Positions 52,701 through 63,563 of a stretch of 64,000 nucleotides of DNA are shown one piece after another. The translations under genes and the position numbers were made by a program. Under the pieces are notes generated by a model. That model ran no database searches. It was not told the DNA's origin and saw only the letters and a list, made by a program, of their open reading frames with translations. How positions within the stretch are numbered: the first letter of the stretch is position 1; the number at the start of each line of letters is the position of its first letter. The DNA is taken from assembly GCF_964355755.1 (NCBI RefSeq), contig NC_092674.1, positions 24,206,001 through 24,270,000 of the forward strand, written 5' to 3'. This DNA comes from Antedon mediterranea (lineage: Eukaryota; Echinodermata; Crinoidea; Comatulida; Antedonidae).

Positions 52701-55700
52701 CTAGTCGTCGACGTAAGGCAAAAATACGTCATAGTCACATTAACAATTTAACCATACATAAATCTTATACAAAGTGGTTAGCTATAGGTAGCATTCGTTC
52801 AGTCATCTATAGCATTAATGTTTACGGCAAATATAGCTTCCATTGGCGTGTACACAACAGACCCAGTTAGGCTTAGAATTAACTGTGAAACACCTAGGGT
52901 AAAGTGAATTCATTTGCATCGCCTTTTCATAGCAGCGTAAATAGGTGTGAACTCTCAAACAAGTAATTTATACAATACCATATTTTCTAAGTACCTATGA
53001 GCAGTGATGTTTCTTTGTTCAGGTTTAGGGGAGTGGAACTGTTGGTTCAAGCTTAAATCATTAGGACCAAAAAGTGCCTAATTAAAATAAGAATCCGTTC
53101 TTTTGTGAATCTCTAACTTTTTTGATAACCATAAGAAGTAACGGTGCACCACGTAATATTATTGATTGATTAATTGGTGTCAACATGCTATAGCAAATAT
53201 ATTGTATTTGTTTATTATATTTTTGTAAACGTTATTTATTTATTTTATTTTATTCTGGTAGGCCTATATATAAAAACAACTTGATATTGCAGTCAAGAAC
53301 TGAATTTCATCAACATTTACAAGTAAAAAGAATATTAAAATGTACATATTATCAGACGTACATAATAAAGTAACTACTGTACTACAGTAGGCCTACTGAT
53401 TTTAAAAGTGTGTAACAGATACAGGCACCCATACAGGCCTACGTTACAAAAAAAAACATTATTCCTAAGAAAACTTGTTCAAAAAATATTGACCATATAA
53501 TCAATTTAAATTCAAACAACAAGAAAAAAAACCATAATAATTAAATGGAATGTATTTGTTTAAACATTCGATTTATAGTAGATAAATTGTAGAAACTTTG
53601 TTTAAAATGTCTCTTTTCAACTCCGTAGTTTGTTATAAATAAGCGTTGGTGGCGCACTGCGTAAAACATAGAATAAAATATCGGCCTTCCATACTTTGGT
53701 AAATGACATCTAAAATATTCATTCTTTGTTGGATTGTGTTTTACTGATTTTCTGAAATGAAAATATTTACTGTAGCATTGTATTGCATGGTTATCCCAGC
53801 AATAACAAACCCACCACTAAATATTTTTACTGTGACGAAAAATTCCTACAAGAAACCAAGACCAAAGAAAAGCCTAGGGCGAATAACGTTCCAAACTTGG
53901 ACGTATGCTAGCTGTCACAGGGCCAAGGACCACGAAAGTGATAACCTATTTAACACGTGAAACATACCTAAAAACAACAAACATGGAGAAAATTATCGAC
54001 GTCTAATCGGCCTGGTGGAATTCATTAACAAGTTCAGAAATCAACAAATAAGTTAATTTCATACTTCCGTTCAAATTTAATATAAAACGACATGCTATAC
54101 TTTATTGATTATGTTTGCTATTTTGTTATCGTCCATGACTATCATAGAAACACTTTCGACTGTAATAATATTTTTATTCGTACGGACGGAATAATAGGAC
54201 ATAGGACAATGTGGAAAGAAAAGTGAGTGCAAGTCGGAAAGGGACCACGAAGAAGAGTATAATATGTCAGTCAATCGATCGATCAATCAATCAAAGTTTG
54301 AATGCACTATAGGCAAAGCATATATCTATTATTTAGAGGCATACAAACTAGACATATATATTACATTATTTGATTTCCATTATGAACGCAACGCAAGATA
54401 CTTACGCGGCGCATGCGAGTGTTTTGACCAATCACGACAACGCCAACGTTGGATTGGTCAAATTGTTGCGTTGCGTTCACGTTATGTTGTATTGAGAAAC
54501 AAGTTACAATATTGTCCATTCAAAACGCAGGCTATGTGCCACCATGGAAGAAAAAAATTATTTTTTCCTCCATGGTGCCACCCATATCGCTTGAGCAATA
54601 TCTACTGTAGAAGTCTGGCTGCCAATGATCCTTATCCCTCCATTGTGTCACTAAAAAGTTCATTAACAGAAGGTGCAGTCTGGGTGAAATTTTAGCCGAG
54701 TGGAAGGTCCTAAAACAAACTTTCGACTGGGTGTATGAATGAACCAGGCGATCCTATGCTAACCGCCTCAAGTAGGCCTACAATGTGGATTATAAAGATT
54801 ATTTATTAAGCCAAATCAAGAACTTAACAATCATTGTTCAGGTATATTCCACATAAAATAATTAATCCAACATGGCGGTCTTAATTTCTGTTATGGTATT
54901 TTGATTTGTGTATACAAAATATCATCTCTTGTCACTGAATATCATGTCCCCATTGCTCCGCAACTGACGACGACGCCAAATTGACTTGAATGTGACGACC
55001 GCAAATTTCTCATCACAACTGTCGTTAATGAGTTCTAGGCCTTGTTACTAACGAACGTATCGCGCTCGGGCTCTCCGGGTGGGAGGTCCTCGTGCGTAAT
55101 GAGTTGTTTCCTTCGGGGCTGCAAGCCAACTGATCCCTGAGAAATACATCCACCCTAATCCTTGGCTGCAGCTGTGGGGTTTACACCAATTATGATAATT
55201 TCCAAATAATATTCTTCAAGGTGAGAATATTTTTTCATAATGTCACGTAGTGTACACAAAGTAAAGTCTATTTTTATAAACAATAATTCGAAACATGTTT
55301 GAAAAATGTTTATTGTGTAGTGTTGCTTTTTCTATTCATTGTAATTTAGGCCAATTTAAATAATTTGTATTAAAATACTACAGTATTATATTTAAAGAAA
55401 CTTTGTTTTAAAATATTGTAATAAGTAAAAGGGCAATACACAGATGATATAGACTGATAACAATTTGTGGTCGAATTTCCCATTTCCATTCTTAATAATT
55501 GTTAAATCAAATAGCCTACATAGCATAATTAGGCCTAATCAGAGCAGAGGGGGAAGAATTATGCTAAACTCCTCCAAAATGGGTTAAAACGCGGCGTGTC
55601 TCTGATCGAAGGAATTACAGTAATTAACACATGCCATACATCTTTAAATAGGCCTAGCTTAAAACAATTATAAAACAAATGGATCTATTGTTATAGGCCT

Positions 55701-57388
55701 ATTTCAATTGTTAAATTAAATTCGTCGTATTTGGGTCTCAGAATTGAGGTCACAGTGTTGAACGCACGGTCACACGGCCGGTCAAGTGCGATTACATAAC
55801 AGTACGGAAACTCATGTGCGCAGCATGTGCGCAGTGGGTTCTTAGTCTCCGACTGCGCGAACATTTCCCACGAATATATTTGGATAATGCAATATATTTG
55901 TAGTCGGATATGGGTTCATTATATCAAAAATACTCAATTGGAATCGTAAAGTGGAATACGATCTTATGAAACAAGTTCCCACACGTAAAAATATTACGAC
56001 CTTTTTTAAATTCCAGACTTTCAATAGCTATAAATACATTCGTATTGTGTGTGTTGGCAAACTTGATTTAAAGTTAAATAATATATGACAATGTTGAAAG
56101 ATTGAATTAAAACGAACCTTTGAATACGGCATTTTTAAAGTTTTAATAAAGTTATTCACTTCAGCACAACAGAAACATGATTTCACTTTAAAAAGACAAA
56201 ACAAACGGTTAAATTTAATCAAAACCCCCATTGCCTGAGAGACAATGACCTTCAATCTGGTGGACTATTTTTTATTTAAATTATGATTTATTTATATTTG
56301 TGTGTTTTCGTTCCAATTGTTGGTCAAACTGATCATTAACGTACTATTATGAGACATTACAACAAACACATTTTTACATGATTTTTAAGGAAAAATTATC
56401 GCTTTTAAAGTGAATTGTGGCAATTTTTGAAAGAACATTCTGAATAATATAAAATTTAATTCTTCTTAAGTCCTACTTTTTTAACCAGGTAAGAGATAAA
56501 TTAATTTCAATCTTCCTTGTTTTTTTAACCAAAATGTTAGTAGTATTTCATTATCAGTTAATTTAGGATTCTTCCATTACTGTTGATCGATATACCTAAC
56601 TAATTACATACGGTATAATTATCACACATCCTACTTTGCTAATTGAACTGATTAGAAATAGCAAATCAATTGTATGGTCTAATGGTTACAATAAACAATG
56701 TTTGCCTAGTCGTATGGGACGCCAAATCTGCAATAAACGGTATATAATTTAGCCATGACTTATTATTTCTCCGTGCTTCCAACGTTAGACCCAATCATAC
56801 ATTTAAGGTAATTGACCTATCTTTGTATTTAGTTTTTACCTTTTATTTCTACTCTTGTACTGTATTTAGTTATTAATATTAATTTTATTTATATGTTGTC
56901 AAACATATAATATATATAGCTGTGTTCTTCTGTTCCAAAAGACTTAACCATGGAGGTATAACAAATTTTATACCTCCATGACTTAACCAATACATTATTA
57001 TTATTATTATTTTTATTATCTGACATAACTATTTAGAGAGATTAACTGTTATAAATATACTAAAATTACTTTGAGAATAATTCATCCTTCGGTACTATGA
57101 TAAGGATGATTAAAAATTACCCATCCTCTCTCTATCTCCTTCCCCGCCCCTCATACACGTTAATCAACGCCAAAAATAATATTCTTGAATTGAGGTGGTC
57201 TCTCGTGAGAAGTAAACATCCTACAAGCCCAACGTGTCATTTAATTATTGTATTTAATATTGATGATGTTATGCGTTTGACTATTAAATCCATCAACAAA
57301 TATAATAACTAAATTTATATATTGTGCAATTAATAATAAAAAAAAGCAACTTACCGAAGTTTACTAAGAACGTCCAGAAGTTTTAAAC
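37768..57388 (-). CDS. Formin of the INF2/FHDC1 group, 5' end missing
   Basis: Thirteen minus-strand exons join in one frame of about 2,020 codons: 57355-57388, 51962-52109, 50537-51325, 49345-49523, 47829-47931, 47441-47526, 47179-47279, 46849-46919, 46177-46284, 45027-45097, 43521-43641, 42905-43069 and 37768-41856. The first three give [33 protein letters not shown] and a helical segment, matching the end of the INF2 DID/FH3 region. FH1 (about 50700-50830) has five or more proline runs for profilin. FH2 runs from [11 protein letters not shown] through [39 protein letters not shown] and [18 protein letters not shown] to LAEYLCED. It should nucleate and elongate actin filaments in the cytoplasm. 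The 1,362-residue tail is one exon, basic and Ser/Thr/Pro-rich, without clear domains; FHDC1 tails bind microtubules, so that is a possible role. The first exon and most of the DID are not placed. Confidence 0.85.
42431..42613. mobile_element. Hairpin MITE, family HP1, best-preserved copy, in a formin intron
   Basis: The ends are AGCTTGGTTCCCACTAG and CTAGTGGGAACCACGCT, bordered by TTA on both sides. The stem includes AACGTAACGCAAGGACGTAA and GCGTTACGTCCTTGCGTTGC. It lies in the last formin intron. Confidence 0.75.
42765..42885. repeat. MITE fragment related to 1560-1692
   Basis: AGCATATCACTACCATATTT, GAGCACATCAC and CAGAGCTTTA match the small MITE family. It is intronic in the formin. Confidence 0.5.
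45352..45465. mobile_element. Hairpin MITE, family HP1, copy in a formin intron
   Basis: CTTGGCTTCCACCAGAAACG and CTAGTGTGGGAACCAAG are inverted ends; ACGTAAGTGATTTGACACTT and TTGCGTCTACGTAATTGAC lie between. Confidence 0.65.
48095..48297 (+). mobile_element. Putative SINE or LINE 3' end with ACCTTT tail
   Basis: The body holds AAAGCCGTTGTTCCCGTGTA, CAGTGCACGTTAAAGAACTT and ATTCGAAAAGAGTAGGG, and the end is (ACCTTT)n. The core resembles a sequence common in interspersed elements of marine invertebrates; this is recollection, not a search. It is intronic in the formin. Confidence 0.5.
51840..51858. other. Possible degenerate mini-palindrome
   Basis: GGAGAAAATATATATCTCC sits after CAT and resembles the mini-palindromes described below, but I see no clear flanking duplication. 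Confidence 0.3.
54370..54495. mobile_element. Hairpin MITE, family HP1-like
   Basis: ATGAACGCAACGCAAGATA and GTTGCGTTGCGTTCACG are inverted; GTTTTGACCAATCACGAC and GGATTGGTCAAATTG form the inner stem. Confidence 0.65.
54544..54574. mobile_element. Mini-palindrome insertion P1 (31 bases)
   Basis: ATGGAAGAAAAAAA … TTTTTTCCTCCATG forms a hairpin with one mismatch, flanked by the direct repeat GTGCCACC (54536-54543 and 54575-54582). Confidence 0.65.
56095..56260. repeat. Repeat family R1, diverged copy
   Basis: AAAGTTTTAATAAAGTTATTC, CACTTC, AAAAAGACAAAACAAACGGTT and CCATTGCCTGAGAGACAAT parallel 660-785. Confidence 0.5.
56951..56979. mobile_element. Mini-palindrome insertion P2 (29 bases)
   Basis: TGGAGGTATAA and TTATACCTCCA pair perfectly, flanked by the exact 10-base direct repeat GACTTAACCA (56941-56950 and 56980-56989). 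Confidence 0.75.
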
Positions 57389-59693
57389 CTGCAAAATCGG
57401 GATGAAGAAGAATAAGAGTCATATTAACAACCAAGGAAAAATCTCTTCATATCACAAAATAAATATTTTTAAACTCTCAACACAAATGCACCATGTGAAC
57501 GCCGCATCAAAGATCACCACTGTCCAATATTTATATCTCTGTTTAACGACCATCAGCAGCAGGCCAGCTCACTGGCTACTACGCCTTCTTCCCGTCGTAG
57601 TCTGTCTCGTTATGGTCTTATCTTTGTGTTTTTATTCCCTGGTTGTTCGGTGTGTTTTGGAGCCAGAGCCTAATTGGTGATCGGTGCTCTGCGGGAGTTT
57701 GGGCTGGCGAGCAATACGATACGAAATAAGGGCGGATAAACTTAATGACGGTAATACCCAAATGACTATAACGGTTCAGTTATTAATTTGCTGCAGTTTG
57801 GTAACAAGCAACGGTGTTTTTACAGGTTAAAGAAAGCAATTCTGTGAAGATCTTTAAGATTGCATATTTCTGGGTATAAGAAACGAAACCATTACAAAAA
57901 TAATAGACTTATTAATATTGGAATGTTGTTCAATATTGCCCTGTATTTTATTGTTTTGTTTAGATTCTTTTTAAAAATTACGAACTTGTTAAAACCGTAC
58001 CGGTAACATTATCTTAGCACCTATATTTATTATACATTGCATAAAATCAGGATTTATATCTGGCATGCCTATTATTACAAAAAACACTGTGACCTAAATA
58101 ACTGTCAAAATAATGTTTTCCACCCTCGCTGTACGCTTTCATTGTATTTTGTTTCGTCAGTGTCCAAGTTATTGTTTTGCTTTGTTGTGTTTCGTCAAAA
58201 GCATTGTTGTTTTTTCCAATTGATAAAGACCTACACACCATATTCATTAGCATAGGCCTATTTGTATTTCTTGAGCTTGATAGTAAATAGACCTAGGGAC
58301 ATAAATATTATATCGCCTATAGAAAATCATGTGTGAACACAGTCTTAGACTGTTTAGTACTATCGTCAAATTGACGGATTGCCAACTTTATCTCCGAATG
58401 ACTGTGATATTAGGCTTATGTCTTTTTAGTCGTAAATCAGAGTTAGATTAATAAACATTTTCTTTAAAAAACACCTGTTCTACAACAACGTGAGAACATG
58501 AACTTGAAGGCCTATGTACTATAGTAGAAAAAATAAACGTATAGAAATATTTATTGACTGAGGATAGACCTGTTTTGTGAATGAAATACTGGCGTCTTCG
58601 TTTGGCGAATTTAGGCATATGTCGGAGACACCCCTTTCCCTATTCTGGATTCGCCTCAGATTTATATAGGCACACTAGTCGATAACGTACTTCGGTTGTA
58701 AGCGAAAAACATTGTTATTTTCCTGTCTGTTTTGACCTTACCGTAGCCTATAGTTTATATTTAAAATGGGAAAACTCACGGAAAGAAAAGCAAATTCATC
58801 GTACCTGAAGCTGTCTTATGCATGTCCGAAGTGTGGTGTCATGGCCTAGCGATACTTCAACTACCCTATGGTGTTCACATCAGAGCTATACTTTTACTAA
58901 TATGATACGTTTACCTTTAACAAAGACTTAGTAATAACTTAATAAGCAAACATGGTTGACCTAAACATAACCCATAAATTCCCTCGTAAATTGTGTTATT
59001 ATATTCGTTTATTGTTGTAAACAAAGGCTAATATTTCAATACTTTTGTTTAGACCCGTTAAATATATTATTACTACGTTACAATTGGATAATAGTTATGT
59101 AAATACACTCATTGTCCAATCATTTTGCAATAAACAATAAAGTTTAATTCGCTTAGTGGAAATAACTATTGTTCACGGCACAGATTTATTAATTTGTCAA
59201 GAAGTAGCCCTGTCTCTATCCCCTCAAGAGTGAAACAATAATCATGTACTTCCAGACAAACCGCTTTGATTGTTTGTTCTTTTTGATGGCCACTTGTTTT
59301 TATTAAATAGGTGAGAATATTTACAAATTCGCAACAGTTGTTGCAAGAAATAAGCCGGTAAAAGAAATAATTTCATGGATTTCTTAACATTTGAACGACA
59401 ACAAGCAATGACCTCTTGGGTGTCTGTAAGGTCAGTGAATATAGCACATCGTTGAAATTTTGATAATTGTTCGGAATGTGTTAATTTAGACCTATTTGAC
59501 ACTGATTGTTGTGAATGGTTAGTATTACGTTGGGATGTACTATCCTTTTATTTGAACGTAATTCACCCCAGACTAAACCAGTATAATGTTTTTAGATTTT
59601 TTTGATTTCCAGGCAAACTTCTATCTGTTGATTTAATTTTTTTTTAAACTTGAAATTGACCTCTAGTCTAGGTCTACCAAGTGAATGATTGAT
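57389..59693. other. Region upstream of the first placed formin exon
   Basis: AT-rich, no confident gene. Formin DID exons are expected upstream of 57388 but I could place only one weak candidate at 58805-58860. Confidence 0.5.
58805..58860 (-). CDS. Candidate upstream formin exon (weak)
   Basis: The minus strand reads VEVSLGHDTTLRTCIRQLQ followed by a GTACGA donor. CIRLLQ-type sequence occurs at the start of the INF2 DID, so this could be an N-terminal exon. The roughly 190 residues that should lie between it and 57388 were not found, so it may be chance. Confidence 0.3.
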
Positions 59694-60555
59694 AAACTTT
59701 ATTGTTTTGTTGAGCCAAATGCAATTGTTCGTACCTTTAAATACCTAACTAACATTATACATTAAATATATCTTGCAGTGTTTTGGTTTGTAGCAAAAAC
59801 TATAGTATAGAGTCCTATTATTGAAATCTCATTTACCGTCTGGCCTAGTTCAGTTTCTGCGAAATGCTTTGAACGCGTAAGTCAAAATGGGGTCGCCTTA
59901 TAAGGTCAAAACTTTATTGTTTTGTTGAGCCAAATGCAATTGTTCGTACCTTTAAATACCTAACTAACATTATACATTAAATATATCTTGCAGTGTTTTG
60001 GTTTGTAGCAAAAACTATAGTATAGAGTCCTATTATTGAAATCTCATTTACCGTCTGGCCTAGTTCAGTTTCTGCGAAATGCTTTGAACGCGTAAGTCAA
60101 AATGGGGTCGCCTTATAAGGTCAAAACTTTATTGTTTTGTTGAGCCAAATGCAATTGTTCGTACCTTTAAATACCTAACTAACATTATACATTAAATATA
60201 TCTTGCAGTGTTTTGGTTTGTAGCAAAAACTATAGTATAGAGTCCTATTATTGAAATCTCATTTACCGTCTGGCCTAGTTCAGTTTCTGCGAAATGCTTT
60301 GAACGCGTAAGTCAAAATGGGGTCGCCTTATAAGGTCAAAACTTTATTGTTTTGTTGAGCCAAATGCAATTGTTCGTACCTTTAAATACCTAACTAACAT
60401 TATACATTAAATATATCTTGCAGTGTTTTGGTTTGTAGCAAAAACTATAGTATAGAGTCCTATTATTGAAATCTCATTTACCGTCTGGCCTAGTTCAGTT
60501 TCTGCGAAATGCTTTGAACGCGAAAGTCAAAATGGGGTCGCCTTATAAGGTCAAA
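59694..60555. repeat. Four tandem copies of a 215-base repeat
   Basis: The phrase AAACTTTATTGTTTTGTTGA recurs at exact 215-base spacing four times, ending with GGTCGCCTTATAAGGTCAAA. The copies look identical except GAACGCGTAAG versus GAACGCGAAAG in the last. I see no open frame through it. Confidence 0.95.
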
Positions 60556-62104
60556 GTCAGCGTGAATGGACGACTGGTGACAGCAGCCTATCAACATTGT
60601 CATCAATCATTGTCGTCAATATGTTTGTGTCGTTAAGTTCCATAATTCATTGTTAATTAGACCGCAGCTCATTGTCAATTATGGCAAAGCAAACTACAAG
60701 GAGATAGAGAGTGTGAAAAGTGGAAATCGCTTCTTGTTGACACTTTCTTAAACATGGCTAAACAGCGATAATTTGTTGACCTTTCTGATCTATTTTTAAA
60801 TGTTTTGTGATATACTGATTTTATTTATGGCATAAATATAGAAGAAAGCGTAGTACACTATACGGTTTTGTTTTAAGGGATCTCATTTTAAATTAAAATC
60901 CAATTCTCAAACACTTTAAAAAAAATTAATAACTAAACCAACCTATAAAAGTACCGAAATCATTAAAACAACACTAAATTAAAAGTAAATTGATCAATAC
61001 TGCCGAAACCCAACTAATTGGACACGCCATATTTGGAAAATTATAAGTTTTAACTCTATGTTTAAAATATCTCTTTTTGACAAGTTAAAATTTGTTATAA
61101 GCAAGCAATGAAAAAAAAAGTGCATAAACAGTTAACGAGGATATAATGTCAGCAGTCCTAACAATAACTTTGTCTCGTATTATGATTATATTATTATTAT
61201 TATTATTCTACGTATAAACACTCACTGTGGTACCCAGCTAACTTTGTAGTTCAATGACTCTGTTTTCATAGCAAGTCGATCCTGAATTTGTAATATCGAG
61301 CCAAATCAACAATGGAAAGAAAATGTATCGAAAATGGAACGTGTGCAAAATTGCGCAAAATTTAATTCAGAAACGTCAACATAAATAGTCTAATACAAGA
61401 AAACATTCCACGGCAGTTTGATTAATTTCTTAATTGTTTTCATTACCAATCGATGCGGTAGTTTACCGATTTCAACCGGACATTTCCAACTTGAACAATT
61501 TTCAAAACCGTACAAAAGTTTTCAATTGATTTGCGTATAATAACTTCGATTTCAAAGGCGTTTCGTTCCATTAGCGCATTGACGCGAATTGGCGTGGTTA
61601 GATTTACGGGGCTAGATAATCGTGCGGTGTCTTTAAACTCGTGATATTATCTCTGAAGTCAGTTATGCAAGTTTAAATCATTTACGTGCGAACAACTTCA
61701 CAGATTTCTTCAGTCATATAGTGCATATCTTTTGTGTCTGTATTGTACAGGTAGTGTCACCAATATCTATCAATTCTATGGCGAATACATCACCTTTCTC
61801 ACCTTACAAGACTGTAAACAATCAACAAGTAATTGATCATAATATTATATAAAAACGTACTTTTACCAGATATTATTCGGTTAACTGGTTTTGTGAACAT
61901 TGAACTTTTGTTAAAAAACGTTGGTACGTCAAACTAACGAGATTTGGTAATCTCTTTATCAAAAGTTTTTTTTGCAAAAGTGTTGTAATCACTGCTTCTG
62001 CTTCTCAATCTTTTGATAAACATGTAGGGCCTCCAGTAAATGTTAAATTAATACTTTTTGAATTTAAAATATGATCCTCAACATCATAATGATTGTAATA
62101 CCAC

Positions 62105-62121
62105 GGAGCTATAGCTCCATG
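62105..62121. mobile_element. Mini-palindrome insertion P3 (17 bases)
   Basis: GGAGCTATAGCTCC is a perfect palindrome followed by ATG, flanked by the exact 10-base direct repeat GTAATACCAC (62095-62104 and 62122-62131). Confidence 0.7.
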
Positions 62122-63178
62122 GTAATACCACCATTCAATGATTATATAGTATTTTAAATTCAACCTGTAAACAGCAGAACGTAATTGACAAAAGCGTAAT
62201 TGATGTTTAACTTAAGAAAACAGAGCGTATTAATTGACGTAACGTAAACGTTTTAAATCAGCAGAACGTGCGTGATGGATAGGATTTTACTTCGTGCTTT
62301 TAAAATTCTAAGATTTGACCACCGTATTACTTTTCTTGTTTGAATCCGTTAGTAAGTCCCTTGTAATTAAGAAAATTGTTTTTGATTGAGTTCGACAAGA
62401 AGGGTCAGTGACCTATACTTCTTGTCCGAATACTGGACACTAATGTCCATTTGTCCTATAACAAGTGTTACCAACCAGGGACAAACTGACCGCAGTGCGT
62501 GCTCCTGGGGCAAATCCGTGAGATTTCCTAGCGGTCATACCTGAATTTAGGTCTGGTTTTCGTTTATGTCACACCCGTTGGCTAACAATCTGTAGGCATG
62601 GGTCTCTATAAATAATAACATTCTCTGGCCTAGTGCATTTCCCGAGGGTTTTAGGCTGTGTGTTTGTTCAGAGGAATGCTCGGAGCTAAAATACATCTTC
62701 TATCTGCCTATACAATACGGTATTAGGTTTTATGTCATCAAAGCAAACTGCCTTGCATATACAATTCAATTGTGTCAAAATTGGATGTCACCTCAAATAT
62801 TCTAAGCATATGAACTTAACTGGAACCAAACAGATTAAAAGAAAATAGATGAAATACCAGATTTACTAGCGCCAGTAGCTAATAGTAGCCTCGGTCACAT
62901 TAAGTTCATGACTGTCATTAAATCCAGTGGAATGTTATTGGCGTTTTTCATTTTCCACAATGTATTGTTCAACATTTTTTTTCATCAAAAAAAAAAAAGG
63001 ACAGTTTATATGTTTGCTTTTCGATTAGGTTTTTAGATTAAGATTGATTAGGATATACATATTGTATTTCACTGTAAAATAAAGACATACATTGTCATTA
63101 ATTGTTTTTATTGGGATGTAGCCTAGAGCTTTAGATAGAAGATTATCATGTATAGATGAAAAGAGAATTTATAACCGC

Positions 63179-63230
63179 GGAGAAATAAATAACTTACTTA
63201 ACTAACTAACTAACTAACTTATTTCTCCAT
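63179..63230. repeat. Hairpin with TTAACTAAC loop, possible mini-palindrome relative
   Basis: GGAGAAATAA and TTATTTCTCC pair around a run of TAAC units, followed by ATG as in P1 and P3. The flanks share only a partial match, so a target duplication is doubtful. Confidence 0.4.
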
Positions 63231-63563
63231 GTGGTATGACACAACAAGCAGTCTGCAGAATTTTGATTTAGACTTGTCAGGAGAGACCTCTGGCATATCC
63301 AGATACTATAAATGTTCATAAACACAACCATTGATCGTCTTGTTTCCAAGCCCATGAGGTTAAAAATGGGACAAAAATCGTTATGAACTTTAGGCCAATA
63401 ATACCATCACTTCCTCTTGTACTTTAGTTTGAAAAGAGCACTTAGAATCTTAAATGTTGTCTCGACATAGTACTTTTTGTTTGTACTTTTTAGATTCTAT
63501 AATGTATTAGTCATGATTTTGGTGTCTGAAAATAGTTTCGAAAAACGACGTCTAGTCTGGTAA

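Follow-up and report, generated by a model that had tools for sequence, protein, structure and literature searches.

Palindromic inserts in the window

The 64 kb stretch of the Antedon mediterranea genome analysed here in its entirety (G000:C5:24206001-24270000, referred to as the window) contains three tiny palindromes, each of which lies between exact direct repeats and, as argued below, probably marks the former position of a P-superfamily DNA transposon. For brevity, we refer to these palindromes as scars. A preliminary description of the window had reported three exact direct repeats and had placed them correctly, with GTGCCACC at 54536 and 54575, GACTTAACCA at 56941 and 56980, and GTAATACCAC at 62095 and 62122. 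The repeats were described as 8–10 bases in length; instead, 7 bp is duplicated at both edges of each insert (GTGCCAC, ACTTAAC and GTAATAC), and the repeats appeared longer because the outermost bases of the insert, or others matching them, were counted in. The three sites share a common layout, in which CATGGAG...CTCCATG is enclosed by two copies of the 7 bp sequence, and the left tip carries a single substitution at sites 1 and 3.

At site 1, target-site duplication GTGCCAC (54536-54542, an exact repeat of 54575-54581) encloses the 32 bp scar CATGGAAGAAAAAAATTATTTTTTCCTCCATG (54543-54574), which is of tip type CATGGAGGAAAAAA. Scar 2, CATGGAGGTATAACAAATTTTATACCTCCATG (56949-56980), is also 32 bp in length, has tip type CATGGAGGTATAA and lies between copies of ACTTAAC at 56942-56948 and 56981-56987. 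The shortest of the three, scar 3, is the 20 bp insert CACGGAGCTATAGCTCCATG (62102-62121) of tip type CATGGAGCTATA, positioned between copies of GTAATAC at 62095-62101 and 62122-62128; this duplication fits the Galileo target preference GTANTAC, as given in PMC4168063. At 63176-63231 there is probably a fourth scar, now decayed, which has tip type CATGGAGAAATAAGTTAG and a central filler of repeated CTAA; it came to light through an 18-mer match in the genome search (G000:C5:24269214-24269231, minus strand) and was recognized by eye. The fourth site is proposed by inference only, because its flanks (TTATAAC and GTATGAC) match at 5/7 positions and fail a scan requiring six of seven; two bases separate the tip from the right flank.

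A scan of the window that tolerated up to three mismatches over both tips, and required flanks matching at six or more of seven positions, recovered exactly sites 1–3. The same scan of 30 shuffled windows gave no match in 28 and a single match in 2. A generic scan, which accepted all palindromes flanked by repeats of 7–14 bases, returned six rows in the window versus 0–5 in 20 shuffles; it recovered only site 2 of the three, and three of the other rows were one ATC microsatellite. The generic result makes the window alone weak evidence, and leaves the decision to genome-wide counts.

Abundance and target-site duplication across the genome

The genome searched comprises 354 Mb in 18 contigs. 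A genome-wide pattern search gave a count far above the control, with CATGGAGN{3,33}CTCCATG matching 2,493 places versus 13 for the reversed pattern. The related pattern CCATGGAGN{4,30}CTCCATG gave 1160+1121 hits on the two strands versus 1+1 for its reversal, whilst gaps of 31–61 bases gave only 100+93 strand hits versus 43+43 in the control, many of them compound. The scarcity of long-gap matches means that the palindromes mostly end near 45 bp. Because exact tips were required, decayed scars escape these counts, including scars 1 and 3 of the window. Several tip types were present and the scars of one type were joined in many ways, in agreement with the earlier observation that only the tip is common and the inner sequence differs.

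To define the duplication, all 77 readable scars in loci L001-L105 were kept as a sample. These scars ranged from 17 to 47 bp in length. An exact 7 bp repeat was found at both edges of 60/77, an exact 8 bp repeat at 4/77 (in one case within an AT run), and a match at six or more of seven positions at 67/77, compared with 0/308 exact matches in a control with the edges shifted outward. The CCATGGAGN-pattern sample is biased by its own pattern towards a final C or an initial G; amongst the 31 scars chosen without a flank constraint, 23 were exact at 7 bp and three at 8 bp, and position 2 of the duplication was T in 72% (symmetrized).

When the 50 positions listed on contig C1 were collapsed, the remaining 47, which span 7.1 Mb, showed four gaps shorter than 10 kb versus 2.96 expected (P 0.34), a result that does not establish the clustering of scars in the window as a general feature. 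At some loci (L015 1803-1878, L017 1626-1702 and L001 571-646), compound arrays were observed, consisting of adjoining scars between repeats such as GTCAAAC. Such arrays perhaps arose when an element inserted again into the duplication beside an existing scar and was then excised in turn.

Empty sites

Paralogous empty sites were identified for two scars. Comparison of L016 with L087 showed 27 bp missing, corresponding to an insert of 20 bp and one 7 bp duplication, and comparison of L036 with both L034 and L035 showed 39 bp missing, corresponding to 32 and 7 bp. Together with the 7 bp repeats, these empty sites of other members of the set support the earlier suggestion that the palindromes are true insertions with target duplication. 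The L055 scar, which has GTCTAAT on both sides on the minus strand, is absent from a homologous stretch of C1, which shows local differences. A place on C9 near a PF21787 match was considered as a possible element end, but turned out to be a scar with a single tip, flanked on either side by ATTAGAC; the homologue of this place on C1 does not have the insert, and differs locally.

Probable parent elements and their transposases

A tip that runs on past the length of the palindromes sits upstream of a P-type transposase on contig C5. When a 251-base stretch starting 20 bases before this tip was used as a DNA query, 40 matches were obtained, including approximately 30 left ends, amongst the 40 of 56 candidates that were scored. 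Ten of the 11 regions fetched for this first family contained complete copies of 2.2–2.9 kb whose 31 bp terminal repeats follow CATGGAGTAAAGAATAAGAGGAGACACAACT with few mismatches, and all ten copies lie between exact 7 bp duplications. The eleventh region, L077, contained one end only within the stretch fetched. L077 and the C5 copy have approximately 4.3 kb in common in three pieces that include the transposase frame (94–98% identity), and the short copy L075 shares approximately 1.3 kb of the left end common to both (88–90% identity).

The C5 copy (G000:C5:14656949-14669633) is 12,685 bp in length, has identical 31 bp repeats and is bordered on both sides by CTACAAC. Its inner 621 aa frame matches PF21787 (7.9e-25) and PF12017 (1.1e-4). 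Against solved structures, the P transposase 6p5a was the sole match up to an E value of 0.1, and was weak (E 1e-4). A second element, on contig C11 (G000:C11:13871856-13878179; 6,324 bp), has the perfect 32 bp repeat CATGGAGGTATAAAAATAGAAGGAGAGAGCTC, the duplication GATACCG on both sides and a 590 aa frame matching PF21787 (4.9e-24). The PF21787 scores of both frames exceed the cut-off, as expected of a P-type RNase H domain, and the 31 and 32 bp terminal repeats and 7 bp duplications of the two elements agree with the expectation for the P superfamily. The terminal repeat of the Drosophila P element is 31 bp. The tips of scar 2 in the window are those of the C11 family for the first 13 (left) or 15 (right) bases, and then diverge.

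In a first pass, eight P-transposase loci (approximately 3.4 kb each; eight of 35 matches) were found without CATGGAG tips. Wider fetches and the DNA search revealed CATGGAG tips for two of these loci, L047 and L048, whilst the element at L043-L045 has other ends.

The 12.7 kb C5 element also contains a 1,330 aa stop-to-stop frame (G000:C5:14662251-14666240, plus strand) and a 355 aa frame (G000:C5:14667037-14668101, minus strand), which could represent captured genes or elements nested within it. Elsewhere, the CATGGAG-type palindrome CATGGAGTTATATTTTTATACCGCCATG (L087 5345-5372; flanks matching at 5/7 positions) lies approximately 850 bp downstream of a P-type transposase match at C3:12884054-12884500, and we regard it as a P-type scar adjoining a P-type transposase gene.

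Other tip families

The element at L043-L045 is another P-type element, present as three near-identical copies with a 794 aa frame that matches 6p5a at 1.5e-14. Its ends, CTGAGACAACAATC, are unrelated to the CATGGAG tips, and its 7 bp duplication is CGGACAC. As a test of the generality of scars, palindromes formed by its tips, CTGAGACA, were counted: there were 81, versus 0 in the control. We consider the support from this family to be moderate, because seven of the ten exact repeats found at fetched loci share one amplified flank. In a single host repeat, with a flank like gtagccctacat or its complement, a CTGAGACA palindrome of 25–32 bp occupies the same spot at 9/20 loci (L108-L112, L114, L117, L123 and L125). 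Such a pattern could reflect the amplification of one insertion site, at which either excision occurred several times independently or slippage followed later.

Tip type CATGGAGAAATAAGTTAG, that of the probable fourth scar, was followed at 20 fetched places (L055-L074). Both tips were present at 16 of these, one tip was mostly lost at L055, L056 and L072 (judged by eye), and L062 was the remainder.

Length of the retained tips and junction classes

In the first family, 238 scars retain at least 10 nt of the element end on both sides, compared with approximately 30 left ends, or 25 exact 30 nt tips, of elements. This gives roughly eight scars per element, a ratio in which the left ends come from the 40 of 56 candidates scored and the scars are those with exact tips. 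Amongst the 50 of these 238 scars that were listed, none of the 100 tips retains 20 nt or more, and 32 distinct inner sequences are found. Genome-wide, at least 17 nt of the left tip is retained in 43+33 strand hits (70 loci), compared with no match that retains at least 20 nt. At these 70 loci, 17 nt is kept in 45, 18 nt in 13 and 19 nt in 12, and the 19th base may stem from the partner tip. The longest scar amongst them is 53 bp. Because retention stops at 18–19 of 31 bp, the break is probably located approximately 18 nt inside the terminal repeat, a limit that was measured in the first family.

The junctions at the same 70 loci comprised 18 with an overlap of at least one base, 21 that were blunt and 31 with filler sequence. 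Of the fillers of at least 5 nt, 16/20 contained a 5-mer found in the tip or in its complement, compared with a shuffled mean of 8.1, and none of 2000 shuffles reached 16. Without four fillers that may be partly substituted tips, the proportion was 12/16 versus 5.6 in shuffled sequence, with three of 5000 shuffles reaching 12. The fillers suggest that a theta-like end-joining pathway probably operates in this genome.

Comparison with known systems

Staggered cleavage at the Drosophila P element leaves 17 nt 3′ extensions, as stated in PMC10983969. The junction table in PMC2895639 gives the form acccagac CATGATGAAATAACATA / TATGTTATTTCATCATG acccagac, joined by microhomology, bluntly or with templated filler, and polymerase theta acts in this repair. 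The Drosophila P footprints described there resemble the palindromes reported here in their duplicated target, in the head-to-head arrangement of terminal-repeat tips, in their junction classes and in the involvement of single-stranded 3′ tails; the first four tip bases, CATG, also agree. There are differences in detail, since the same paper gives a duplication of 8 bp and a tip of 17 nt, CATGATGAAATAACATA, for Drosophila P, whereas we observed duplications of 7 (sometimes 8) bp and tips of up to 18–19 nt. Furthermore, the Drosophila footprints described there are laboratory repair products, whereas the palindromes of this genome stand at approximately 2,500 places.

Galileo, according to PMC4168063, makes 7 bp duplications with rare 8 bp cases and prefers GTANTAC/GTATTAC. 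This description and our data agree in the 7 bp duplication with rare 8 bp examples and in the P-superfamily transposase, and the GTAATAC of scar 3 fits the preference. Galileo as described there differs in its long terminal repeats and in possessing a THAP domain; the two elements measured here have 31/32 bp repeats, and THAP went undetected in the frames scanned. The zebrafish P-like elements and THAP9, as presented in PMC10983969, have a transposase of the same P-type family; in the present transposases, the N-terminal domain is zf-AD/RAG1-like.

Origin of the palindromes

We propose, with a probability of approximately 95%, that each tiny palindrome is the excision scar of a departed P-superfamily DNA transposon. 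According to this model, a transposon would insert and duplicate 7 bp (occasionally 8 bp) of its target. The transposase would later make a staggered cut, with one strand cleaved at the element end and the other approximately 18 nt inside the 31–32 bp terminal inverted repeat, a step that is modelled on Drosophila P. Each side of the break would thus keep a 3′ tail carrying the outermost ~18 nt of this repeat, and the tails would be joined end to end at microhomology, bluntly or with a short copied filler, probably by polymerase-theta-like end joining. Because the terminal repeat is inverted, both tails would have the same sequence and their joining would yield a palindrome, mostly of 17–47 bp, between the duplications. 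The preliminary description had raised the possibility of a novel class of mobile or enzyme-made insertion. 'Enzyme-made' is an apt term, whilst the notion of a new mobile class is not supported, as the presence of CATGGAG-tipped P-type elements in the same genome points to excision scars.

Miniature inverted-repeat transposable elements (MITEs) are short, have inverted-repeat tips and target duplications, and occur in many copies. Minute non-autonomous transposons of 17–47 bp that consist of terminal inverted repeats only, mobilized by a P-type transposase, would share their tips with the full-length elements, would produce 7 bp duplications and could occupy some 2,500 places, and the recurrence of inner sequences (the 50 listed scars of the first family amount to 32 distinct sequences) is also in their favour. 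A mobile unit should nevertheless hold the whole terminal repeat, whereas no more than 19 of 31 nt is retained; the junctions vary widely, and the fillers resemble tips. Instead of complete terminal repeats and a conserved length, we found a spread of 17–47 bp and, in the measured family, truncated repeats. Unlike amplified mobile units, the palindromes look like products of end joining, and their recurrent inner sequences would arise from reused microhomology or from the copying of larger repeats. We therefore consider MITEs of this kind very unlikely, and the inserts of 20–32 bp in the window fall below the length of ordinary MITEs, as was originally remarked.

Replication slippage or template switching can also yield short palindromes with direct repeats, and could in principle act at quasi-palindromes and duplicate the flanking bases too, with no transposon involved. 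Such an origin leaves unexplained the fixed CATGGAG tip, the near-constant 7 bp duplication, the fact that the tips are identical to P-type element ends in the same genome and the stop at 18–19 nt, and we judge it to be exceedingly improbable. No greater credence can be given to the idea that the palindromes are excision scars of transposons mobilized by an unrelated transposase that shares the ends. The CATGGAG elements do differ in size (2.2–12.7 kb), and other long frames are present in the 12.7 kb copy; against this, two CATGGAG families that differ beyond the tip both enclose a PF21787 P-type frame, and the 7/8 bp duplication and its leaning towards GT...AC fit the P superfamily as described for Galileo.

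A number of observations weigh against excision of P-superfamily elements. No excision was observed. Ten of the 77 CATGGAG scars lack a six-of-seven match at 7 bp; four of these fit 8 bp and six fit neither length. The places are not all independent events, because some scars have been copied inside larger repeats; five identical scars lie between C1:8193689 and C1:8371511. Two further comparisons were not counted as empty sites, namely L098 with L007, in which the gap is 5 bp longer than the insert plus duplication, and L039 with the window near 29.95 kb, which aligned poorly. In the CTGAGACA family, an exact 7 bp repeat was found in only ten of the 20 palindromes fetched from the 81, and seven of the ten share the amplified flank. 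The tip types of the four scars in the window differ from those of the two families with identified elements, and we infer that these scars arose in the same way. For tip type CATGGAGAAATAAGTTAG, the 95 exact matches included no facing exact pair 60 bp–30 kb apart, and hence no intact element, in a search that would miss elements with mutated ends; the tip types of scars 1 and 3 were outside the parent search. Finally, no THAP domain was matched in the transposase frames scanned, a search that did not extend to unrecognized upstream exons.

The N-terminal domain and wider implications

A cysteine-rich N-terminal domain opens the P-type frames of L077 (3203-4816, minus strand), L047 (259-2121, plus strand) and L048 (1303-3072, minus strand). 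RAG1_imp_bd was matched by L077 above the cut-off (1.7e-5) and by L047 below it (4.9e-3), and zf-AD was matched by L048 (1.9e-5) and L047 (1.2e-3), both below the cut-off. The Aplysia N-RAG-TP transposon is discussed as the source of the N-terminal part of RAG1 in PMC8355894. A link between the present N-terminal domains and N-RAG-TP or RAG1 is only a lead, and in the open-access literature we found no paper joining RAG1, N-terminal, P element, transposon and zf-AD.

Excision scars of this sort are already known from fruit flies, and the unusual features here are their number, the ~18 nt stagger, a tip type for which no element was found and the RAG1/zf-AD-like domain. Amongst the open-access matches listed, no genome-wide survey of P-type excision scars was found by title or abstract opening. 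We speculate, as a tentative and rather doubtful proposal, that P-type departures in this genome are usually end-joined and not template-restored, leaving an archive of approximately 2,500 exact-tip scars, about eight for each element that survives in the single family counted, together with 'ghost' transposons whose tip types persist in scars alone, with no living element left, and that the transposases combine a P-type RNase H domain with a zf-AD/RAG1-like domain. If this were true, the portion of RAG1 that is missing from Transib transposons might have come from P-type transposons. As most of the scars that were read have an intact duplication and a legible junction, they would allow the departures of transposons to be counted, and not arrivals alone. 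The stagger of a transposase might be estimated from sequence alone, the signature of end joining in the germline would become legible for a non-model organism, and transposon families that are possibly otherwise gone could be inferred from their scars. For repeat annotation, our findings caution against classing such CATGGAG palindromes as MITEs.

In addition to the scars, the window contains a 215 bp unit repeated in four tandem copies at 59694-60555, with 99% matches.

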